Assembly: GCA_018819925.1 (NCBI GenBank)
Contig: JAHJPG010000134.1
Span: forward strand, 1-64,000
DNA from: Pseudomonadota bacterium
GTDB taxonomy: Bacteria; Desulfobacterota; Desulfarculia; Desulfarculales; Desulfarculaceae
Direction of reading: 5' to 3'
DNA length: 64,000 nucleotides
Made by a program: the position numbers and the translations under genes. Below the pieces are notes generated by a model. It was not told where the DNA came from. It searched no databases and saw nothing but the letters and a program-made list of their open reading frames with translations. Of this stretch, positions 26,074 through 38,121 are shown piece by piece; position 1 is the first letter of the stretch, and each line of letters starts with the position of its first letter.

Positions 26074-26610
26074 CTATGGCAGGGTGTAGGTCAACACCGC
26101 ATTGGCCTCGGTTGCGCCCTGGGGATGCTCCTTGGATTTGGGGAGCTTTCGGTTGGTGAATTTCGCGGTGCCCTTGATGCCCTGGTAGACCCCGGCGCCC
26201 TTGAGGATGGTGCCCGTGCCCTGGCCCAAGGTCCCGTTCTTGTCCCTGCCCACAACGCTGGCGTTCCATTTGAAAAACAGCCAGGAGTTGTCATCGAATG
26301 CCATCCTGGTGTAACCCTCGGACGTTAGACTTTTGCCGCGCACGAAGTCAAAGGTGAATACGTTTGAGTACTTGGCCTTTCTTCCGTCGCTGAATACCGC
26401 CTGCCCCTGACGCTGGCCCAGGCCCACGAAGTGATCCGGGCCGTCCCCGGCCGGAAGAACCGTGGGGGGCGGCCCGGTCATGACGACCTTCACCTTGACG
26501 GTTACCGGCTCGCCGGCCCAGGCCGGCGCCGCGCTCAGGGCCAGCAAGAGCATGACAGCCAACAACATCGGCAGCGCCCTTTTGTGTTTCTTCGTCCGAT
26601 CGCCGTTCAT
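26074..26610 (-). CDS. Small secreted beta-rich protein
   Basis: Exported protein, 178 aa, with a clear Sec signal peptide (basic start, Leu-rich core, cleavage near APAWAG at about residue 32). The mature part is Gly-rich and probably beta-sheet, with GTGTILKGAGVYQGIKGTA reminiscent of allene-oxide-cyclase/dirigent-like barrels; that resemblance is weak. The start at 26610 has GGAGGG upstream; an in-frame ATG at 26637 does not. It is divergent from the membrane LytTR regulator, which may control it. Confidence 0.75.
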   Translation of the reverse strand: MNGDRTKKHKRALPMLLAVMLLLALSAAPAWAGEPVTVKVKVVMTGPPPTVLPAGDGPDHFVGLGQRQGQAVFSDGRKAKYSNVFTFDFVRGKSLTSEGYTRMAFDDNSWLFFKWNASVVGRDKNGTLGQGTGTILKGAGVYQGIKGTAKFTNRKLPKSKEHPQGATEANAVLTYTLP

Positions 26611-26778
26611 GATTTCACCCTCCGTTGGTTGTGACAATCCGGGCCGGAGCGATACACGCCTCGGCCTTTAGGAGCCCAGTTTCAACAAAGACTCCAGGGG
26701 CCGGCAAGCTCCTTGTCGTCAACGGGGTCCTGATGTCGCGTACGGGACGGCGCACCACTGGCGCATTCATGGCAAGTC

Positions 26779-26896: not shown

Positions 26897-27907
26897 ATGC
26901 TAAGGGCCATCAACGCTGGCGGGGTTCCCATGAGCAACCTGGAAATTTTCTTCAAGCGCCTGGCGCGGCAGGTCAAAGGCTATTTTGGCGCGCCTCTGGG
27001 GGAGTTCTACGCCCATACCGCCAACCGCCTAATGCTATACCCATTTATCGCCGGCTTTTTTTTAACTGAATGCGTGGCGTTCTGGGCCTTGTTCCAGGGC
27101 CCAGCCTTTCTGTTGGACCATATGGCCTTTTGCATCGTGTACTCCCTGCACAAATCCGTCCTGTACACCTTCTGTTTGCTGGGCGCCGATGTGCTGGCCA
27201 ATTGGTTGTTTCCCGCCTGGGGCTCCTATGCCAAACGCCGCGTGGGCCGCCAGTGGATCATCTGGTCAATGGGGCTGGTTGCCGCATACCTGCTGCATAG
27301 AAGCATGATCACCAGCCTGGTGGTGTTCTATGCGCCCGATGTAGTGGGATTTTTCAGGGCCTATCCCGAGGCGATACCCCGCAGGACCACCGTGCTGATG
27401 ATCCTTTTGCCTTACTTTTGCACCGTGGTGTTCATAACTCTGCAAATAGCCCGAAACAAGCTGAAGATTCAGAGAGTGGCCGCAACCGTCACGGCCGAGC
27501 CGCCCGATGCCGGGACGGGCCAATTTTCGCGGCCCGCCGGCCAGGGCGGGCTGCCGGCGGGCCGCCTGAGGCTGGAGAACGGCGGCGGCAACGATACCAT
27601 CGCCCTGGCGGACATCACCCACGTCTCGGTGGAGGACCACTACTGCCGCATCAACTACGCCACGGCCCAGGGGCTCAAAAACGTGCTGATACGCCTGCCT
27701 CTGGCGGAACTGATGCGCAAGCTGCCTCGTGAGCACTTTTTGCAGACCCACCGCTCGCATGTGGTGAACCTGGGGCACGTGTCGCGCCTGCGCCGGGAGG
27801 GCCGCCAGAAAACCTTGGTGCTGGCGCGCCATGGGGTGGAGTTGCCCATCAGCCGGCAGCGCTTCAAACAGGTGGAGCCGAGGCTGAAAGTTAATGGGTG
27901 TGGTTGA
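26897..27907 (+). CDS. Membrane-anchored LytTR transcriptional regulator
   Basis: Protein of 336 aa with about four transmembrane helices in the first 195 residues (near 45-66, 72-100, 120-145 and 165-190) and a C-terminal LytTR DNA-binding domain (about 230-330, with VEDHYCRINY, LPREHFLQTHRSHVVNL and LPISRQR). There is no receiver domain or kinase, so signal and output are in one chain. The start is either ATG 26897 or ATG 26930. A hairpin terminator follows the gene. It probably acts on its own promoter or the divergent secreted-protein gene. Confidence 0.85.
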   Translation: MLRAINAGGVPMSNLEIFFKRLARQVKGYFGAPLGEFYAHTANRLMLYPFIAGFFLTECVAFWALFQGPAFLLDHMAFCIVYSLHKSVLYTFCLLGADVLANWLFPAWGSYAKRRVGRQWIIWSMGLVAAYLLHRSMITSLVVFYAPDVVGFFRAYPEAIPRRTTVLMILLPYFCTVVFITLQIARNKLKIQRVAATVTAEPPDAGTGQFSRPAGQGGLPAGRLRLENGGGNDTIALADITHVSVEDHYCRINYATAQGLKNVLIRLPLAELMRKLPREHFLQTHRSHVVNLGHVSRLRREGRQKTLVLARHGVELPISRQRFKQVEPRLKVNGCG

Positions 27908-28214: not shown

Positions 28215-28994
28215 GTGCATTTAAGATGGCTTGGTGTGGTCATTGTGGCTTGTCTAGGTCTGCTTCCCGCCCTGGCCGGGGCCCAGCCGCCCTCGGACGA
28301 TCAAATCAAGGCCTATCTGCAAAAACATCCCGAGGTGATTCTGGAGGTGCTCTCCCAGCACAAGGTGGAGTTGTACAATTTGGTCATGGCCGGGCGCGAG
28401 GTTCGGCAACGGCTCATCTGGCGCGAAAACATCAGACGCGGCCTTGCCAACCCCCTGGCGCCGCGGGTGGACCCCAAGAGAGTGGTTGTAGGCGATGCCC
28501 AGGCCAAGGTCCTGGTGGTGGAGTACACCGATTTTTTGTGCCCCTCCTGCCGACAGGCCGCGTCCAACCTGGAACGGCTCATGGCCAAGCATCCCAAGCG
28601 TTTCAAGCTGCTGGTGAAGCACCTGCCCGGCTCGGACCTGGCCCGCCAAGTGGCGCTTTACTATGAGGCGATAGGCCGCCAGAGCCCGGCCAAGGCCTGG
28701 CGCTTTTACCAGGAGGTTTTCCACAACCAGGATTTGATAGCCGAGCGGGGCCTGGCCGAGGTGCAGGCGCTGGTCAAGAGGCTGAAAATAGACCCGGCCC
28801 GTCTGACCCGGGACTTGGCCGACAAGGCCCTGGCCAAGCGCCTGGAGGACGACCAGGCCGAGAGCAAGGCCTTCAAGCTGGCGGGCACTCCGGCTTTTGT
28901 GACCGGGGGGGTGGTGATGCGCGGGCCGGCCCCGTTGGCCGCCTTCGAGGATGTGTGGGCCATAAGCCAGGGGGAAAAACTGGAGCCGCTATGA
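28215..28994 (+). CDS. DsbA/DsbG-like thioredoxin-fold protein
   Basis: Exported thiol oxidoreductase of 259 aa. A signal peptide (about 1-23, ending ALAGA) is followed by a helical dimerisation-like segment (25-85) and a thioredoxin fold with the redox motif Cys109-Pro-Ser-Cys112. The cis-Pro loop is GTPAF, and the architecture resembles the Com1/DsbG type. The start is GTG 28215 with GAGAGGA upstream. It lies 51 nt ahead of the TolC gene and so probably heads the efflux operon, where it may help fold a periplasmic component. Confidence 0.88.
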   Translation: MHLRWLGVVIVACLGLLPALAGAQPPSDDQIKAYLQKHPEVILEVLSQHKVELYNLVMAGREVRQRLIWRENIRRGLANPLAPRVDPKRVVVGDAQAKVLVVEYTDFLCPSCRQAASNLERLMAKHPKRFKLLVKHLPGSDLARQVALYYEAIGRQSPAKAWRFYQEVFHNQDLIAERGLAEVQALVKRLKIDPARLTRDLADKALAKRLEDDQAESKAFKLAGTPAFVTGGVVMRGPAPLAAFEDVWAISQGEKLEPL

Positions 28995-29045
28995 GGTCAA
29001 TCAATTCCTCGAGGCGGCTGAGTGGTTCCCGTTAAATTAACGCTT

Positions 29046-30623
29046 ATGAAAACGCTTGGTTGCAAAAGGCTGGGTATGGGCCTGGCCCGATGCCTCGGGT
29101 TGGCGCTGGCTGTGCTCCTGGGTATGGGCTCGGGCGCGGTCCGGGCCGAACTTCCCGCCTGGGCCAAAGACGGCGCCCCAAAAAAGCCCCTGGAAATGGC
29201 GCTGCCCGAAGCGGTTTTTTTGGCGGTGCGCAACAACACCGACATTAAAAACGCCTACCTTGACAGGGTGACTCAAAAATTCAATCTGGAGGTGGCGGAG
29301 CACAAGTTCAAGCCCGACATCAACCTTGACGCCAATTTGGTGCGTTCGGGCTCGGACACCAACGAGGATTTTTCCGGGCAGCCCTATGACACGGATATCA
29401 ATACCACCCAGGGGCAGGTGACAGCCACGGTGACCGAGAAAATCCCCACCGGCGCTGAATTCACCTTCACCTGGCAGTACACCAAGACCGAGGGCGACGC
29501 CACCGGCAGCTACTACAGCGACGAAAGCAGCACGGCCAACTCCTGGCAGCTGGCCATGACCCAGCCCTTGCTCAGGGGGGCGGGCATAGACGTGAACATG
29601 GCCTCGGTGCGTCAGGCCCGCATCAGCGAGTGGCAAAACATCCTGGGGCTCAAGGCCACCCTGATCGGCACCGTAACCACCGTTATCTATAACTACCGCG
29701 CCTTTCTCGAGTCCGGAAAGCAATTGGCGATCGCCCAACGCAGCCTGAAACGGGCCCGGGAGCTTCTGGAGGAAAACAAGGCCCTCATCGCCGCCGGGCG
29801 CATGGCCCAAAGCGATCTGGTGCAGTCCCAGTCCAACTTGGCCAACCAGCGCATCTACTACCAGCAGGCGATCAACCAGTTGGAGCAGAACCGCCTGGAG
29901 TTGCTCAGGACCCTGAACATGAACAAAAACACCAGGGTCCTCCCCACGGAGGAACTCCGCCTGCCCTCGGTGCTGCCCACCTTGGATCAGGCCCTGGCCT
30001 TGGCCTATGCCAACCAGCCGGCTTACCTCCAGGCCAAGCTGGTTTTGGACTACACCAAGCAGTCCTTGGTATTGGCCGAGAACGACCAGCTTTGGGACTT
30101 GAATCTGTTGGTAAACTACAATTACACCGACACCCGGGGCGCTAGCATCGGCAACACGACGGAAAACGACTGGTCCGCCGGATTGTACATGAGCATACCC
30201 ATTTACGGCACTACCCGTCTTGGCCGCAAGGCCGGGCTTTTGCAGGCCCGTTCCGATCTTTTCAAGGCCAAGAACAGCTTCAGGCAGGCGGAGGAAAACC
30301 TGAACATAGATGTGGACAACGCCCTCAGGGATCTGAGGATAAAGCAAGAACAAGTCAAACTGGCTGACCTGGCCCTTAAGCTGTCCCAGGAAAAACTGAC
30401 CAACGAGCAGATCAAACTCAAGTCCGGACGCTCCTCCAACTTCGTGGTGGTCAGCTACCAGTTGGATTTGGCCACCGCCGAGAACACCAAGTTGACCGCC
30501 GAGGTGGAGTTTCTAAATAGTTTGACCCGCCTGGATCAGGTTATCGGCACCGCCTTGAACACCTGGCGCATCGCCTTCAAGACTCAGCGAAAGTCGGCCC
30601 AAAAAAAGGTGTGGGGCCAATGA
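29046..30623 (+). CDS. TolC-family outer membrane efflux protein
   Basis: Outer-membrane channel of about 525 aa. A signal peptide (about 1-34) precedes two OEP repeats with long coiled-coil helices (about 50-280 and 300-500) and aromatic-rich outer-membrane strands. The start is chosen as ATG 29046 because it gives a standard signal peptide; an in-frame GTG at 29022 adds eight residues. It is followed 33 nt later by the adaptor and MacB genes, completing a tripartite pump. Confidence 0.9.
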   Translation: MKTLGCKRLGMGLARCLGLALAVLLGMGSGAVRAELPAWAKDGAPKKPLEMALPEAVFLAVRNNTDIKNAYLDRVTQKFNLEVAEHKFKPDINLDANLVRSGSDTNEDFSGQPYDTDINTTQGQVTATVTEKIPTGAEFTFTWQYTKTEGDATGSYYSDESSTANSWQLAMTQPLLRGAGIDVNMASVRQARISEWQNILGLKATLIGTVTTVIYNYRAFLESGKQLAIAQRSLKRARELLEENKALIAAGRMAQSDLVQSQSNLANQRIYYQQAINQLEQNRLELLRTLNMNKNTRVLPTEELRLPSVLPTLDQALALAYANQPAYLQAKLVLDYTKQSLVLAENDQLWDLNLLVNYNYTDTRGASIGNTTENDWSAGLYMSIPIYGTTRLGRKAGLLQARSDLFKAKNSFRQAEENLNIDVDNALRDLRIKQEQVKLADLALKLSQEKLTNEQIKLKSGRSSNFVVVSYQLDLATAENTKLTAEVEFLNSLTRLDQVIGTALNTWRIAFKTQRKSAQKKVWGQ

Positions 30624-30656
30624 AAAAAATAGGCGCCGTGAGCAAGGAGAAACCCC

Positions 30657-32408
30657 ATGGCGGATGCTGAGTTGACCTACCAGAAACTCCTGGACGGCCT
30701 GCCGGTGGGGGTGATGTCCCTGGGAGCCCAAGGCGAGATAAGCCGCATCAACCCGGCCGCCGCCAAGCTGCTGGGAGTGGTCCGGGAGGAGGTCAGGGGC
30801 AAAAGCTTTGAACAAGTCTTTGCCGACGGTCTGGCCAAGCACGACGAGCTGTTGGAAACCATCAGAAAGGCCTACCTCAAGAAATCGTCCATCAAGGACC
30901 TGAGGATTCCTTTTACGCGTCCGGGCGGGGAGCCTCTCATTGTGTCCCTGTTCACCATGCCCCTGGACGATGACAACTTCAGCCTGACTTTTTCCGATGT
31001 CACCCAGGAAGAAGCGGCCCGCCAGCAGCAGGAACGCCAAAGCACGGAGGCCACCGGCCTGGCCCTGCGCCTGCGCCAGGAAAAAGAGCGGCTGGAGGCG
31101 GAACTAAAAGGGGGCTCACTTCTGCGCCTGGGGGCGGCGCTGCTGATAATCCTTCTTTTTCTAGTCGCCGGCTACTTCGCCTGGACTCGCACGCCCCTTG
31201 TGGCCTACGTGGAAAGACAGTTGAGCGGGGCCAAGCAAACGGCCCAGAAAGCTCAAAACGTCTACACCGTGGCGCCGCGCCCCCTGAGTTCATCCATCAG
31301 TCTTTCGGGCACCGTGGCCCCCTATGAAACCATAAACGTACTCAGCCCCTTTGCCGGCCGGGTCCTGGAGCGCCACTTCGACTACGGCCAAAAGGTGGAA
31401 AAGGGCAAGTTTCTGCTGCGCCTGGACACCTCGGAACTGGATCAGAAGTTCAGGGACGCCGAGGTGGCCCTTATCAAGGCCCGGGAGAATTACCAGCGGC
31501 TGAAGGACTGGAAAAACAGCGATACGGTGCTGCATGCCAAGCGGGACATGGAAAAGGCCAAAAACGACGCGGCGATAACCCAACAAAAGCTCTCGGAGTC
31601 GGAGGTGCTCTATCAAAAGGGCATCATTCCCCTGGATGAGTACCGATCCTTGAAGGGGCAGGTGGAAAACCAGAAGATCAACATGCGCACCCTGAAGGAC
31701 CAACTGCGGGCGGCCATGGAAAAGGGCAACGCCAGAAACCTGCTGGTGGCCCGCCTCCAGTTGGAAAATGCCCAGGCCAAGCTGGACAAACTCAAGGGGC
31801 AGATAAAGGACAGTCAGGTCACTGCTCCGGTGATGGGGGTCATAATCAAACCCACCACCGGCCTGGACAGCAAGCAGGCCAAGGAGGTGCAGGTCGGCTC
31901 CGAGGTGGCTGAAGGGCAGCTATTGTTCGCCCTGGGCAACCTGGAGCGGCTTTCGGTGCTTACCAAGGTGGGCGAGTTGAACGTGACCAAGCTGGTCCCT
32001 GGACAAAAGGTGAAACTGACCAGCTTCGCTTTCCCGGGGCTGATGATGGAGGGCCGTATCGCCGCGGTCTCCTCCCAGGTGAGCCCTGGCAGCGATTCCG
32101 CTCCCCCCTCCTTCTCGGTAAAGGTGGCCACCGCGAAGCTCAACCACCACCAGCGGGGAAAGCTGCGCCTGGGTATGAGCGCCGAGCTACAGGTGGAGGT
32201 TTCCTCCCATCCCAAGGCCCTGGTGGTACCCATAACCGCGGTTCATCCCCACCCCGGCGGTGGTTTCGCGGTGACCTTGGCTGGAGTCCATGGTGGCAAG
32301 GAAACGCCGGTCACCACCGGGCTGACCACGGTGGATTCGGTGGAAATAACCTCCGGGCTCAAGGCAGGGGACAAGGTGCTCTTGCCCGCCGGTCCAACCG
32401 CTCCATGA
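30657..32408 (+). CDS. PAS-sensor/MacA-type membrane fusion protein
   Basis: Periplasmic adaptor of 583 aa with an unusual N-terminus. Domains in order: a PAS domain (about 6-117, with DGLPVGVMSLGAQGEISRI and a final SDVTQEEAARQQ), a coiled coil (118-150), one transmembrane helix (about 155-175), then the adaptor: lipoyl/barrel-sandwich half (about 218-255), alpha-hairpin (about 257-370), second lipoyl half and beta-barrels (370-560). The PAS would sit in the cytoplasm and the adaptor in the periplasm. MacA/HlyD proteins normally have only a short cytoplasmic tail. Its ATGA stop/start overlap with the ATPase gene indicates translational coupling. The PAS could sense ligand, redox state or drug and gate the pump. 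Confidence 0.92.
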   Translation: MADAELTYQKLLDGLPVGVMSLGAQGEISRINPAAAKLLGVVREEVRGKSFEQVFADGLAKHDELLETIRKAYLKKSSIKDLRIPFTRPGGEPLIVSLFTMPLDDDNFSLTFSDVTQEEAARQQQERQSTEATGLALRLRQEKERLEAELKGGSLLRLGAALLIILLFLVAGYFAWTRTPLVAYVERQLSGAKQTAQKAQNVYTVAPRPLSSSISLSGTVAPYETINVLSPFAGRVLERHFDYGQKVEKGKFLLRLDTSELDQKFRDAEVALIKARENYQRLKDWKNSDTVLHAKRDMEKAKNDAAITQQKLSESEVLYQKGIIPLDEYRSLKGQVENQKINMRTLKDQLRAAMEKGNARNLLVARLQLENAQAKLDKLKGQIKDSQVTAPVMGVIIKPTTGLDSKQAKEVQVGSEVAEGQLLFALGNLERLSVLTKVGELNVTKLVPGQKVKLTSFAFPGLMMEGRIAAVSSQVSPGSDSAPPSFSVKVATAKLNHHQRGKLRLGMSAELQVEVSSHPKALVVPITAVHPHPGGGFAVTLAGVHGGKETPVTTGLTTVDSVEITSGLKAGDKVLLPAGPTAP

Positions 32409-33091
32409 AAAACGCCATGGTAATGATCCAGATGAAAGGAATCACCAAGACCTACCATATCGGCGACATGGCCGTGGCGGTGCTCAAAGGTGTGGATCTG
32501 GAGGTTGCCCCGGGAGAGATGGTGGCCATTATCGGCGAAAGCGGCGGGGGCAAATCAACCTTGATGAACATTATCGGATTCTTGGACACCCCCAGCAGCG
32601 GCAGCTATTGGTTCGAAGACCAGGACGCCTCCCACCTGACCGACAACCAGTTGGCGGTGATCCGCAACCAAAAGATCGGCTTCGTGTTTCAGCAGTTCAA
32701 TCTGCTGCCCCGGCTGACCGCCTTGGACAACGTTTGCCTGCCCCTGGTCTACCGTGGGGTGCCCCACCCCCAAAGGCGGGAGATCGCCAAGCAACTTTTG
32801 GAGCAGGTGGGTATGGGCCAGCGCATGACCCACCATCCTCCCGAGCTGTCCGGGGGCCAGCAACAGCGTGTTGCCATCGCCCGGGCCCTGGCGGGCAAAC
32901 CGGCCCTGATCTTGGCTGATGAACCCACCGGAGCCTTGGACAGCCAGGTCAGCCAAGAGATCATGGACCTCTTCAAGGGCCTGAACAGCGAGCAGAAAAT
33001 AACCACGATCCTCGTCACTCACGACCCCAACGTGGGCCGGCAGTGTCAGCGCACGGTGCGCATGGCCGATGGCCGCTTGAGCGAGGTTTGA
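32405..33091 (+). CDS. MacB/LolD-type ABC transporter ATPase
   Basis: ATP-binding subunit of 228 aa. Walker [11 protein letters not shown]-loop, signature [15 protein letters not shown], Walker [14 protein letters not shown] and the His switch are all present. It starts inside the stop of the adaptor gene (ATGA) and is followed 4 nt later by the permease, so in this system MacB is split into two chains. It energises mechanotransmission rather than import. Confidence 0.95.
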
Positions 33092-33095
33092 GCCC

Positions 33096-34295
33096 ATGAT
33101 GCCTTTTGCGGAACTGGTGCGCGAGGCCCTGCGCAGCCAAGCCACGGCCAAACAACGCACTATTTTGGCCCTCATTGGCATCGTCATCGGCATAGGCTCG
33201 GTGATCGCCCTGGTCACCGTGGGCCAGATGGTGCAGCTAACCTCCCTGCAGCAGTTCGAGCAGATGGGCACCAACATAATCACCATACAAAAGGGCTGGA
33301 GCGACAAGGGGGGCCAAAAAAGCCAAGCCCGGCAAAACATAACCTACGGCGACGCCCTGGACCTGGCCCACCAGGTGCCCGAGTTGCAGCTGATCGCCCC
33401 CTACACCACCACTTGGGGCCAGCCCATTTTCCACGAAGAGCCCCTGGATATGCCGTTGCTGGGGGTGAGCCCCGCCTTTGCCGACATCAACAAACTGGAG
33501 TTGACCAGGGGACGCTTCATCAGCGCCTTGGACGGATATTCCTTTCTGGGGGTGCTGGGGGCCGGGGCGGCGGATCAATTGGCCAAGAAAGGGGTGAACG
33601 ACCCCATGGGCCAAACCATATTTTTTAAAAAGCAGGGCATTAAAATTATAGGTGTGCTCAAGCGGGTCGAGGATGGCGGCATGCGCCCCTATGAGATAAA
33701 CCCGGGCATAATAATCCCCATTCACACCTCGTTCCTCTTTGGGACCCAGCGCAACGTCAACGAGATAATGGCACGGCTGGCCCCGGGGGCAAAACGCCCC
33801 CAGGTTTTCGCCGCCATCCAGCGTTTTTTCAACCAGCGTCAGCCGGGCATGCTTATCCAAATACGCAGCGCCGAGCAGCTTATCGCCGAGATGGCCAAGC
33901 AGAGCCGGTTGTTCACCCTCCTGCTGGGGGCCATCGGCAGCATCTCCCTGCTGGTGGGAGGCATCGGGGTGATGAACGTAATGCTGGTGGCGGTCACCGA
34001 GCGGCGCAAGGAGATCGGCATCCGCCGGGCCCTGGGGGCCCAGAAGATGGACATAGAGGTACAATTCCTGGTGGAATCGGTGACCCTGTGCCTGGTGGGC
34101 GGATTAATCGGCATGTCCCTGGGAGTGGGGACGGCCTATGTCCTGGCTCAAATGAACCAGTGGGTCTTCTTCGTGTCCGGCGTGGCCTTGGCCCTGGGGA
34201 TCGGGGTCTCCAGCGCCATTGGGGTGTTTTTTGGCTACTTCCCGGCTCGCCAGGCCGCCCGCCTCAATCCGATCCTGGCCCTCAGGGACGAGTAG
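33096..34295 (+). CDS. MacB-like ABC permease (FtsX fold)
   Basis: Inner-membrane protein, 399 aa, with one N-terminal helix (about 22-42), a large periplasmic MacB_PCD domain (about 45-265) and three C-terminal helices (about 275-300, 325-350 and 360-385), the typical type VII ABC layout. GGIGVMNVMLVAVTERRKEIGIRRALGA is the family motif region between helices. It is the last gene of the efflux operon with the ATPase, PAS-adaptor, TolC and DsbA-like genes. Confidence 0.95.
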   Translation: MMPFAELVREALRSQATAKQRTILALIGIVIGIGSVIALVTVGQMVQLTSLQQFEQMGTNIITIQKGWSDKGGQKSQARQNITYGDALDLAHQVPELQLIAPYTTTWGQPIFHEEPLDMPLLGVSPAFADINKLELTRGRFISALDGYSFLGVLGAGAADQLAKKGVNDPMGQTIFFKKQGIKIIGVLKRVEDGGMRPYEINPGIIIPIHTSFLFGTQRNVNEIMARLAPGAKRPQVFAAIQRFFNQRQPGMLIQIRSAEQLIAEMAKQSRLFTLLLGAIGSISLLVGGIGVMNVMLVAVTERRKEIGIRRALGAQKMDIEVQFLVESVTLCLVGGLIGMSLGVGTAYVLAQMNQWVFFVSGVALALGIGVSSAIGVFFGYFPARQAARLNPILALRDE

Positions 34296-34391: not shown

Positions 34392-35594
34392 CTAACCTTC
34401 GCGCTCGATGATGGTGGCCACGCCCTGGCCGCCGCCCACGCAGGCGTTGGCGCACCCCCAACGGCCTCCCTTGGCCTCCAGAATGCGGGCCAAGGTGCCG
34501 ATGAGCCGGTTGCCGGTGGCTCCCAGGGGGTGACCGATGGCCAGGCCGCCGCCCATCACGTTGACCCGCTCTGGGTCCAGGCCCAACTCCTTGATGCAGT
34601 TGAGGGCCACGATGGCGAAAGCCTCGTTGATTTCCCAATAATCCATGTCGCCCGGGGCCAGCCCGACCTTTTCCAGGGCCTTGAGGCTGGCCGGCACCGG
34701 CCCCTGGCCCATGATGGTGGGGTCCACGCCGGCGAAACCGATGGAGCGGATGGTGGCCATGGGCTTAATGCCCTTGGCCCGGGCCTTTTTCTTGGACATT
34801 AGGATAAGTGCGGTCCCCGCCGCGTTCAGGGGCGAGCTGACCCCGGCGGTGATGACCCCGTCCTTTTTGAAGGCCGGCTTGAGGCTGGCCAGGCCCTCCA
34901 GGGTGGTGTCGCCGCGCACCGCCTGGTCCTGGGTCACGCTCATCACCGAGCCGTCGGCCTGGGGCGCTTCGATGGGCAGTATCTCGCCGTCGAAGAAGCC
35001 ATCAGCCTGGGCCTGGGCCGCCCGCTGGTGGGAGCGCAGGGCCCACTGGTCCATCTCTTGCTTGGTGCAGCCGGACTGGGCAAAGAGCTTCTCGGCGGTG
35101 AGTCCCATGTTCATGGCGCTCATCATGTCCCAGTGGCGATACTCGGGGTTTAGGAAAAGATTCAGGTTGGGGGCCACCAGGCCCCGGTCCTTGGTGGTGC
35201 CCCCCATGGGCACCCGGGTCATGTGCTCCATGCCCCCCACCATCACCACGTCGGCGAAGCCCTGGGCGATCTCCATGAAGCCGACATGCACCCCGGCCAT
35301 GGCCGAACCGCACTGCTGGTCCACGAACTTGGCGGCGATGGTCTCGGGCAGGTTGGCCAGGAAGATGGGAGTGCGGCCGCCATAGGTCCACTGTTCGCCC
35401 ACCCCGGCGGCCGCCCCCACGATAAAGTCGTCAACCTCCTTGGGCTCCAGGCCGGTGCGTTTAATCAGCTCGGGCAGCACCCGGGCCAACAACTCGTCGG
35501 CCCTGAGGGCGTGGAACCAGTCGCGGGCCGGGTCGTTGGGCCGGCAGCGGGATTGGGCCGTGCGCAGGTAACCGGCGATCACCACCTCTTGCAT
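34392..35594 (-). CDS. Thiolase (acetyl-CoA C-acyltransferase, FadA-like)
   Basis: Cleaves 3-ketoacyl-CoA with CoA in beta-oxidation; 400 aa. The nucleophilic Cys is in DQQCGSAMAG, the active-site His in GGGLAIGHPLGATG, and the second Cys in ANACVGGGQG. The start at 35594 has AGGAGGG upstream; the longer open frame is not needed. It is the second gene of a fadB-fadA operon, 11 nt after the multifunctional protein, probably under the MerR regulator at 38122. Confidence 0.94.
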   Translation of the reverse strand: MQEVVIAGYLRTAQSRCRPNDPARDWFHALRADELLARVLPELIKRTGLEPKEVDDFIVGAAAGVGEQWTYGGRTPIFLANLPETIAAKFVDQQCGSAMAGVHVGFMEIAQGFADVVMVGGMEHMTRVPMGGTTKDRGLVAPNLNLFLNPEYRHWDMMSAMNMGLTAEKLFAQSGCTKQEMDQWALRSHQRAAQAQADGFFDGEILPIEAPQADGSVMSVTQDQAVRGDTTLEGLASLKPAFKKDGVITAGVSSPLNAAGTALILMSKKKARAKGIKPMATIRSIGFAGVDPTIMGQGPVPASLKALEKVGLAPGDMDYWEINEAFAIVALNCIKELGLDPERVNVMGGGLAIGHPLGATGNRLIGTLARILEAKGGRWGCANACVGGGQGVATIIEREG

Positions 35595-35605
35595 TGCAAC
35601 CCTCC

Positions 35606-37735
35606 TTAGTCCTGGTAAAAGCGTTGGCCCTGGGCGGCCATTTGCTGGATGAGTTCGGCCGGGGCGAAGCGCCCACCGTAGCGTGCTTGCAGTTCGTTGA
35701 GTTTGGCCAGCACCTTGTCCAGGCCCCACTTGTCGGCGTAGCGCAGGATGCCCCCCCGATAGGGCGGGAAGCCGGTGCCGTAGATCATGGCCAGGTCCAT
35801 GTCCGCCGGCCGGTCGCAGATGCCTTGCTCCATCATCAGGGCCGCCTCGTTGATGCCGTTGGCCAGCATCACGTCGATGATCTCTTGCTTGCTCATCTCG
35901 CGGGGGGCCACCTGATGCTCTTTGAGATAGTCGGCCAATACCTGGGCCACGCGAGGGTTGGGCGCCGGCTTGGGGCCGCTGTAGTCGAAGTAGCCGCGCC
36001 CGGTCTTGCGGCCGTAATCGCCCAGGGCGTAGATGGCCTCGGTGAGGGGGTGGACCTTGTAGCGATCGCCCAGGCGGCGGGCGAAGGTCTGGTTCACGTG
36101 AAAGTTGATGTCGATGCCGGTGAGGTCTGACAGGGTGGCCGGCCCCATGGGCATGCCGAAGTCCATCATGGCCTCCTCGATGGCCACCGGGCTAACCCCG
36201 TCGGCCATGAGGAACACCGAGCCGCCCATTAGCCCGCCCAACTGGCGCGACACGTAGAAGCCGGGGCCATCGTTGACCACCACCGGCACCTTCTTGATGG
36301 TGCGGCCAAAGGCCACGCTGGTGGCCAGGGTCTGGTCGGAGGTCTTCTCGGCGCAGATGATCTCCAACAGGGGCATGCGCTCGGCTGGGTTGAAAAAGTG
36401 CAGCCCGATCATGCGGCCCGGATCGGCCAGCACCGTGGCCATGTCGGTGATGGGCAGGGCCGAGGTGTTGGTGGCGAAGATCACGTCCGGCCGGCAGATG
36501 CCCTCCAGCTTTTTCCAGATGTCCTGCTTCACCTCCATGTTTTCCAACACCGCCTCGATGACCAGATCCACCTCGGCCATCTCCTCCAGCCGGGTGGTGG
36601 TCTTTAGCTTGTTGGCCAGCAGGGCCTCCAACTGCTCGGGCTTGATCTTCTTGGTCTTTAGTTTGTAGCCAAAGGTTTTCTTGATGGCCTCAACCGCCTT
36701 GGCCAGGGCCTGGTCGTTCACCTCCCAGAGCACAGCGTCCAGGCCGCTGGAAAGCAGCAGATGCACGATGCTCGAACCCATGACTCCGCCGCCCAGCATG
36801 CCAACCTTTTGGGGCTTGGCCGGGCTCAAGCCCTTGATGCGGGGCAGACGTCCGGCGGAGCGCTCGTTCAAGAAAATGCCGATGAGGTTTTTGGCCACGT
36901 CGGAGACCAGGCAGTCGCCGAAAAGTTCGGCCTCCCGGGCGATGTCGGCTTCAAAGTCGGTGGACAGGCCCTTTTCCACCGCCTCGATGATCTTAAAGGG
37001 CGCTATGTAGCCCTTGGCCTTGGGCGCGGTCTGGGCCTTGATGAAGTTGATGAGGTGGGTTTTCTCGCTGGCGCTGGGCAGGCGGTCGAAGCGCCGGCTG
37101 GCCATGCGGCTCTTGTGGCTCAACTGGCCGGAATTGAATTTGGCCGCCGCCGCCAGCGCCGCCTCGCGCAACTGGTCCGGGGCCACCACCTCGTCCACCA
37201 GGCCCAGGGGCCAGGCCTTTTGGGCCCTGATGAACTTGCCGGTGAGCATGAGGTCCAGGGCGTCGGGCAGGCCGATGACCCGGGGCATGCGCTGGGTGCC
37301 GGCGCTGCCGGGCAGCAGGCCCAGTTTGACTTCGGGCAGGCCCAGGCTCACCCCCTGGGCGGCGATGCGGTAATGGCAGGCCAGGGCCATTTCCATGCCC
37401 CCGCCCAGGCAGTTGCCGTTGATGGCCGCGATGATGGGCTTGGGGGAGGCCTCCATGGCGTTGAACCATCGATGCACTTCCATGAGCTTGGCCACAAAGG
37501 GCGCCTTTCCCTTCACCGTTAGAAGCTGGGTGACGTCGGCTCCGGCCACGAAGTTCCTGCCCGTGCCGGTGAGGATTATCACCATCACTTCCGGGTCCTC
37601 CATGGCCTCCATGACGGCCCGCTTGAGCTCCAGGATGAAGTGCTCGGACATCTGATTGACCGGGGGGTTGTCCATGCGCAGGATGGCCACCCCGCCGATG
37701 ATCTCCACCTTGACCGTTTGGTTCTGTGTGTTCAT
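35606..37735 (-). CDS. FadB/FadJ-like enoyl-CoA hydratase/3-hydroxyacyl-CoA dehydrogenase
   Basis: Bifunctional beta-oxidation enzyme of 709 aa. The N-terminal crotonase domain has both catalytic glutamates (GGGMEMALA and LPEVKLG). The central NAD-binding domain begins VGMLGGGVMGSSI near residue 316, with the catalytic His in HFFNPAERMPLLE; two C-terminal helical domains follow. It hydrates and then oxidises enoyl-CoA. The start at 37735 has AGGGAGAGG upstream. It is first in the operon with the thiolase. Confidence 0.95.
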   Translation of the reverse strand: MNTQNQTVKVEIIGGVAILRMDNPPVNQMSEHFILELKRAVMEAMEDPEVMVIILTGTGRNFVAGADVTQLLTVKGKAPFVAKLMEVHRWFNAMEASPKPIIAAINGNCLGGGMEMALACHYRIAAQGVSLGLPEVKLGLLPGSAGTQRMPRVIGLPDALDLMLTGKFIRAQKAWPLGLVDEVVAPDQLREAALAAAAKFNSGQLSHKSRMASRRFDRLPSASEKTHLINFIKAQTAPKAKGYIAPFKIIEAVEKGLSTDFEADIAREAELFGDCLVSDVAKNLIGIFLNERSAGRLPRIKGLSPAKPQKVGMLGGGVMGSSIVHLLLSSGLDAVLWEVNDQALAKAVEAIKKTFGYKLKTKKIKPEQLEALLANKLKTTTRLEEMAEVDLVIEAVLENMEVKQDIWKKLEGICRPDVIFATNTSALPITDMATVLADPGRMIGLHFFNPAERMPLLEIICAEKTSDQTLATSVAFGRTIKKVPVVVNDGPGFYVSRQLGGLMGGSVFLMADGVSPVAIEEAMMDFGMPMGPATLSDLTGIDINFHVNQTFARRLGDRYKVHPLTEAIYALGDYGRKTGRGYFDYSGPKPAPNPRVAQVLADYLKEHQVAPREMSKQEIIDVMLANGINEAALMMEQGICDRPADMDLAMIYGTGFPPYRGGILRYADKWGLDKVLAKLNELQARYGGRFAPAELIQQMAAQGQRFYQD

Positions 37736-38121
37736 TTGCCTCTCCCTGGAGAAAAAGGGGTTGCACGCCATCCGGCGCACCGTCCGTTGCCGTGGCGGCC
37801 GCAGGATTTCCCGTCCCGAGCCTTGGCTCATGCCGCGCCAATCAAGCCCCGGGCCCGCGCGTTTAGCTCAGGCTTCGCCCGGCCAGAAAAGAATATCGCC
37901 GCCGAATAATAACGTATCGCGTTGCTCTGTACTCAACTTGCAACATATAGATCATACGAGTAAAGACATAATATAAAGCAAGTTAAAAATGCAGGGTTGC
38001 TGAGAGAAAAACCCCCAGGGCCCGGGCGTGCCTCCAGCCTTGAACGCTCAGGGCTTGGCAGCCATGAGAAAGACAATACGGCGGCGGTAGATGCGAGGTG
38101 TAAAAAGGGGAAGGCGGGGCG
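37736..38121. other. Intergenic: probable fadBA promoter region
   Basis: 386 nt between the MerR gene and fadB, both on the minus strand. An AT-rich island at about 37905-37995 holds a candidate MerR-type promoter (37951-37981) and a distant AACTTGC/GCAAGTT inverted pair (37935-37941 and 37978-37984). No gene seen. Confidence 0.5.
37951..37981 (-). promoter_or_regulatory. Candidate MerR-type promoter with 19-bp spacer
   Basis: The minus strand reads TTGCTT (37981-37976), a 19-bp spacer, then TATGAT (37956-37951). A 19-bp spacing is characteristic of MerR-activated promoters, and a MerR gene lies just upstream. The -35 box is imperfect and the spacer has no strong dyad. Confidence 0.35.

Follow-up and report, generated by a model that had tools for sequence, protein, structure and literature searches.

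The 64,000-nucleotide stretch of DNA analysed here (the window) encodes what is, by sequence, a MacAB-TolC-type (type VII ABC) tripartite exporter with a predicted cytoplasmic domain on its adaptor. This domain has a PAS fold and is linked through a coiled coil to a transmembrane helix, an arrangement in which relatives carry a GAF domain or no sensory domain at all in place of the PAS. The explanation that we favour, with a probability of roughly 0.55, is that an exchangeable cytoplasmic input domain on the adaptor gates the exporter post-translationally.

The PAS-adaptor gene

The adaptor is encoded at positions 30657..32408 of the forward strand in one frame of 583 amino acids, and the proposal of the sequence-only reading that a PAS domain, a coiled coil, a transmembrane helix and a MacA-type adaptor share a single frame is upheld by the agreement of Pfam, AlphaFold2 and PDB matches (by sequence and by fold). 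The PAS domain occupies residues 8-119 (30678..31013, +), as delimited by Pfam and the AlphaFold2 model. Three Pfam families, PAS_9 (residues 16-117, 39.8 bits against a cut-off of 27), PAS_4 (residues 12-119) and PAS, exceed their cut-offs, and the model displays canonical secondary structure with a pLDDT of about 87-94. The modelled coiled-coil linker, residues 116-155 (31002..31121, +), is kept in relatives in which the PAS is swapped or lost and runs into a transmembrane helix placed by alignment at about residues 156-177 (31122..31187, +), in which G172 and W176 are invariant across the 42 PAS rows of the alignment. In the AlphaFold2 models, the helix that contains both the coiled coil and the hydrophobic transmembrane segment is unbroken from residue 116 to 177. 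From the known topology of such adaptors, the PAS would lie in the cytoplasm. The full-length AlphaFold model (mean pLDDT 62.8, pTM 0.30) is weak outside the PAS and the helix, and domain contacts are therefore not drawn from it.

The periplasmic part, residues 204-575 (31266..32381, +), comprises the hairpin, barrel-sandwich, beta-barrel and membrane-proximal domains and matches HlyD_D23 (residues 210-479, 46.8 against a cut-off of 30) and HlyD_3 (residues 388-504, above its cut-off). Its closest solved relative is MacA, both by sequence (9qgy_G, 3fpp, 5nik) and by fold (9qgy_G, 5nik_D). Among NCBIfam-type profiles, the adaptor scores 126.3 against TIGR01730 (cut-off 94.9), 52.4 against the MacA equivalog for the macrolide transporter subunit, NF008606 (cut-off 342), and 38.3 against the type I HlyD profile TIGR01843, far below the cut-off of 208.65, its partner being of the MacB type. 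Judged by these scores, the adaptor has a MacA-like build and is not an orthologous MacA.

That the real start of the adaptor lies after the PAS, or that two genes have been wrongly fused, is hardly credible. A Shine-Dalgarno motif, AAGGAG (30644..30649, +), stands 7 nt before the ATG of the PAS-bearing start, an in-frame TGA lies 18 nt upstream of this ATG, and the stretch of the adaptor frame that separates residue 101, still within the PAS, from residue 182, past the transmembrane helix, is free of ATG, GTG and TTG codons, so that no start could drop the PAS while keeping the helix. An assembly chimera is ruled out because the join recurs in 7/8 genomes of the window's genus and in other families, adding up to over 40 independently assembled genomes, among them G004, where it lies in a single contig. 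No support for an artefact was found, although in some relatives a PAS-less adaptor begins at a start of its own. On the evidence of the start codons and of the conserved join, both versions were rejected. A TGA flagged within the match in L030 and L031 is merely the terminal stop.

The pump operon

The tight operon begins with a gene for a DsbA/ScsC-like secreted thioredoxin with a CPSC motif (28215..28994, +; Pfam Thioredoxin_4 1.8e-14, weak ScsC_N), a candidate for folding a substrate rich in disulfides. The gene ends 27 nt upstream of the TolC gene, is found at the same position in three relatives (L015, L016, L020) and is present in 4/7 loci of the window's genus. Upstream of it, across a gap of 307 nt, lies the gene for a membrane-anchored LytTR DNA-binding regulator (26897..27907, +; Pfam LytTR 5.4e-16), whose membership of the system is uncertain and whose position is taken by a GGDEF gene in the same three relatives. 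The TolC-type outer-membrane channel (29022..30623, +; Pfam OEP 7.1e-38) is separated by 33 nt from the adaptor, the stop codon of which overlaps, as ATGA, the start of a MacB-type ATPase encoded as a separate nucleotide-binding protein (32405..33091, +; ABC_tran 9e-34, best NCBIfam profile MacB). Four nucleotides further on, the MacB-type permease follows (33096..34295, +; MacB_PCD 2.9e-32, FtsX 2.8e-17).

The ORF coordinates and Pfam matches bear out the earlier description of an ATGA coupling to a split MacB with TolC upstream. By Pfam, the MacB_PCD periplasmic domain, the FtsX-like permease and the ABC ATPase together present the trait of MacB and type VII ABC transporters, and the linkage of a MacA-type adaptor to such a transporter and to TolC is found in a gene order common to almost all relatives. 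Whereas E. coli MacB combines ATPase and permease in one chain, the window has two ORFs (32405-33091 and 33096-34295) and hence two proteins; split forms are known in the MacB superfamily (PMC5985334).

A search for DNA repeats in the pump region gave nothing, and the other adaptors in the window's genome, with open frames of 357-427 aa, are too short to accommodate a sensor at the N-terminus. A secreted-looking protein of 187 aa without a Pfam match is encoded upstream of LytTR, at 26074-26637 (-). Convergent with the pump operon, ordinary neighbours at 34392-37831 (-) have the sequence look of a thiolase-like gene and an enoyl-CoA hydratase/3-hydroxyacyl-CoA dehydrogenase-like gene.

Distribution and exchange of the input domain

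Full-length PAS-adaptors are present in 7/8 genomes of the window's genus (G000 and seven others), whose named neighbours are Desulfarculaceae MAGs; the six besides the window's protein are 50-57% identical to it. Sampling covered one phylum, Desulfobacterota, together with plasmids, and yielded PAS-adaptors in 35 more Desulfobacterota genomes beyond the genus, including other families, at frequencies of 12/277, 7/46 and 16/155 genomes (phylum sample and three more classes). A contig scan gave no match with the single adaptor protein as query and, with the alignment as query, four named Desulfarculaceae/Deltaproteobacteria loci. None of 670 matching plasmid records exceeded 80% of the query and, among the matches listed, the adaptor part alone was covered; no PAS-adaptor was found there. 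The suspected rarity of a PAS on an adaptor is in keeping with these counts within Desulfobacterota and with the adaptor reviews PMC13328181, PMC4446572 and PMC8277102 (the last covered in part), which make no mention of PAS; no description of PAS with HlyD or MacA was found among open-licence papers.

Purifying selection acts on the PAS in every clade tested (dN 0.14/dS 0.76 for L017-L018, dN 0.03/dS 0.25 for L038-L065). When the window is compared with other members of its genus, the PAS changes at roughly double the rate of the adaptor (dN 0.55-0.82 vs 0.28-0.32), a rapid drift that weakens the case for a fixed ligand in this lineage.

On a tree built from the adaptor part alone with 42 PAS rows, 41 of these fall, together with one GAF row and three PAS-less rows, into a group supported at 99/98, within which the PAS has been swapped for GAF once and lost in a single clade. 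The GAF form (L129:6145-8172, +; Pfam GAF 2.5e-13) keeps the coiled coil and the transmembrane helix, and both are still recognisable in the alignment of the PAS-less forms (L042, L043, L081). A distant relative bears an FHA domain (L095:4431-6785, -; FHA 1.1e-13) and has its own full pump operon of TolC, ATPase and permease. It branches basally, as does the PAS paralog of L021, and the placement of both is unsure because of their long branches. An FHA-LuxR-type gene lies near the FHA adaptor, at L095:428-1063. Exchanging input domains while the transducing helix is retained follows the pattern known from sensory proteins and, as such, strengthens a sensory reading. It suggests that, in these environmental Desulfobacterota, the cytoplasmic sensor on the adaptor is interchangeable and that an internal signal switches the pump itself and not just its gene.

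A proposed route from the input domain to the pump

In the mechanism that we propose, the adaptors form an oligomer whose PAS domains would sit beside the nucleotide-binding proteins and bind a small molecule or a partner protein. Binding would alter how the helices of the coiled coil pair or are registered, and through the membrane helix into which they continue, this change would allow or prevent assembly of the pump or stimulation of its MacB ATPase, acting as a post-translational on/off control. MacB operates by mechanotransmission, and loss of the cytoplasmic region or transmembrane segment of MacA is reported to impair stimulation of its ATPase (PMC5985334, citing Tikhonova 2007). HlyD needs its N-terminal cytoplasmic helix to recruit TolC and activate the ATPase (PMC4446572). 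By analogy, a PAS on the segment before the transmembrane helix would be well placed for setting pump activity. The earlier proposal that the PAS gates assembly or ATPase activity thus stands in part: the swaps and losses on a kept helix, together with the role ascribed to the MacA cytoplasmic region in that source, argue for a sensor that acts on the pump, while gating itself is a hypothesis. Against a need for such a sensor, three relatives do without any sensor domain.

PAS domains often dimerise via their flanking helices, and the AlphaFold2 models place a short helix N-terminal and a long helix C-terminal to the domain. The PAS might thus be a passive dimerisation or scaffold module that nucleates adaptor oligomers or holds the separate ATPase at the membrane and conveys no signal. 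Such a role would suit a split MacB, whose ATPase could benefit from tethering, as well as a PAS without a ligand signature and with a rapidly drifting sequence. However, MacB is likewise split in the PAS-less relatives, exchange for GAF or FHA and loss on a kept coiled coil are typical of sensory modules, and the STAS, kinase and SpoIIE neighbours described below also speak for signalling, which makes a purely structural role unlikely.

As to what a gating PAS would perceive, the window's domain contains neither Cys nor Trp, and its only His is not shared by its relatives; a His at alignment column 80, present in 29/42 PAS rows, is missing from the window and its genus. The signatures sought for cofactors (LOV Cys, haem His, Aer/NifL-type flavin Trp) were not found, nor is any Cys or Trp conserved in the 42-row PAS alignment. 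The nearest folds of the PAS model include LOV, DosP and FixL PAS domains (Foldseek). Because Cys and Trp are lacking and the His is unshared, the domain bears no LOV, classical haem or Aer/NifL-type signature. As to the cofactor pockets that the sequence-only reading had proposed to check, the residues that hold LOV or haem cofactors are missing, and its suggestion that the PAS senses redox state finds no haem, flavin or LOV signature in its favour.

Signalling genes beside the pump

A STAS gene lies near the operon in 15/43 PAS loci, and 13 of the 43, all of them among those with STAS, also have an RsbW-like (HATPase_c_2) kinase. The pairs are mostly found directly before TolC, some with stop/start overlap, and in L122 after the permease. 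At L038:2529-5427, L040:94-850 and similar loci, STAS and RsbW-like kinase genes are packed closely in tandem with those of the pump. HD-domain and Tll0287-HAMP-PAS genes stand alongside the pair in L038, as in loci of family f30, and a Cache-HAMP-SpoIIE phosphatase gene precedes TolC in L128, the sole SpoIIE case among PAS loci. The STAS/kinase pair is absent at PAS-less L042 and L081 (L043 is cut by a contig end and uninformative) and from beside the pump in most of the class of G283, the linked loci representing few clades. In loci of the window's genus, no STAS, kinase, SpoIIE, Tll0287-HAMP-PAS or HD-domain gene adjoins the pump, and LytTR or GGDEF genes are found there instead. The earlier suggestion that sensing bypasses transcription is to be set beside the LytTR, GGDEF and response-regulator genes that adjoin several PAS-adaptor copies, and L074 has a sigma54 response regulator upstream of the pump.

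These neighbourhoods suggest that a partner-switch circuit (STAS, RsbW-like kinase, SpoIIE) may be linked to the pump in relatives, in several of which the input would probably come from, or be shared with, this circuit. MlaB of MlaFEDB (PMC7367683) offers a precedent, being a STAS protein that binds an ABC ATPase and has been proposed to regulate it; MlaFEDB transports lipids and, unlike the present system, is without PAS, TolC or MacA.

The signal could also run in reverse, with the adaptor reporting pump occupancy or periplasmic cargo through the transmembrane helix and coiled coil to the PAS and from there to STAS/kinase, LytTR or GGDEF proteins. Flux sensing by BceAB, a MacB-like transporter acting as a sensor (PMC5985334), provides a precedent, and the range of regulatory neighbours, including the sigma54 response regulator, and the lack of an obvious cofactor would agree with it. 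Yet the PAS has no output domain, the neighbours vary between genera and N-terminal input domains normally feed forward, so that we hold this direction of signalling to be quite improbable.

Cys-rich secreted proteins as candidate cargo

Tandem genes for Cys-rich proteins lie beside the pump, six in L124 (L124:569-3389), six in L127 (L127:822-4537), two in L125 (L125:43-1029) and more in L081 (L081:2117-4520) and L126; the family is also represented in L185, L186 and L187. The proteins have a signal peptide and about 115 aa, most with 10-14 Cys, and searches of Pfam and NCBIfam returned no convincing family. Since the Cys-rich filter produced wrong-frame noise (L019, part of L021), the counts are of profile-confirmed members only. 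Comparing genomes with and without the adaptor, the family occurs in 9/17 vs 1/138 in the class of G283 and in 7/10 vs 0/36 in the class of G356; after removal of the profile-seed genomes, these become 6/14 vs 1/138 (p 1.3e-6) and 6/9 vs 0/36 (p 1.0e-5), Fisher values that ignore kinship and overstate independence because the genomes are related. The class of G257 shows no significant difference (1/12 vs 3/265). The window's genome has one member (G000:C5:21277-21534), on another contig than the pump. In G007, two secreted Cys-containing paralogs of 175 and 176 aa, with no match to the Cys-rich profile, directly precede the PAS-adaptor paralog (L021:5442-6541).

This link and the DsbA-like gene in the window's operon make the Cys-rich proteins candidate substrates. 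The E. coli enterotoxin STII travels through Sec, DsbA and then MacAB-TolC (PMC5985334), and export of a DsbA-oxidised peptide by that pump renders a Cys-rich cargo with a DsbA-like partner plausible by analogy. We put the odds that the cargo is a periplasmic, disulfide-rich small secreted protein at a little under even; in the window's genus, it would be folded by the DsbA/ScsC-like operon partner. The earlier idea that the PAS senses the pump's own substrate is not supported: if the cargo is Sec-exported and periplasmic, as the link to the Cys-rich family suggests, a PAS in the cytoplasm would have no direct access to it.

Relation to known systems and significance

The window's exporter resembles MacAB-TolC, the E. 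coli macrolide and heat-stable enterotoxin II exporter, in its MacA-like adaptor, MacB_PCD/FtsX permease and TolC, and the periplasmic peptide export just described is the precedent for the proposed cargo. It differs in that MacA is described as having no cytoplasmic domain before its membrane anchor (PMC13328181), whereas the window's adaptor has a PAS at residues 8-119 and a coiled coil before the transmembrane helix. The N-terminal part of the HlyD of type I secretion likewise lies in the cytoplasm and is functional (PMC4446572, PMC13328181), but it is short, contacts the cargo and lacks a sensor fold. The GAF-HlyD proteins of SecA_DEAD loci in Planctomycetes and Proteobacteria carry a cytosolic-type sensory domain, suggested to be regulatory, on an HlyD-type protein (PMC4452313), but belong to another locus type (SecA_DEAD, Peptidase_M50-like), with GAF rather than PAS and without the MacB pair. 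The darobactin exporter DarCD is, according to NCBIfam models, a split MacAB-type peptide exporter, of which DarC matches the adaptor part and DarD the ATPase; the window, however, scores well below the equivalog cut-offs, and the DarC match starts after the PAS.

As far as our searches of open-licence literature reach, neither the module swapping nor the link to the Cys-rich proteins has been described before. A broader generalisation, that adaptors with plug-in sensors (PAS, GAF, FHA) define a hitherto undescribed class of self-regulating tripartite exporters, often wired to STAS, kinase and SpoIIE proteins and exporting a new Cys-rich family through a gated MacB-type pump, is tentative and, taken whole, rather doubtful. 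Accounts of how tripartite pumps are controlled deal mostly with transcription. A naturally occurring adaptor whose cytoplasmic input can be swapped, placed on a segment implicated in ATPase stimulation, offers a direct route to test post-translational gating and the path of its signal; the Cys-rich family, if it is the cargo, would constitute a native substrate class for MacB-type exporters.
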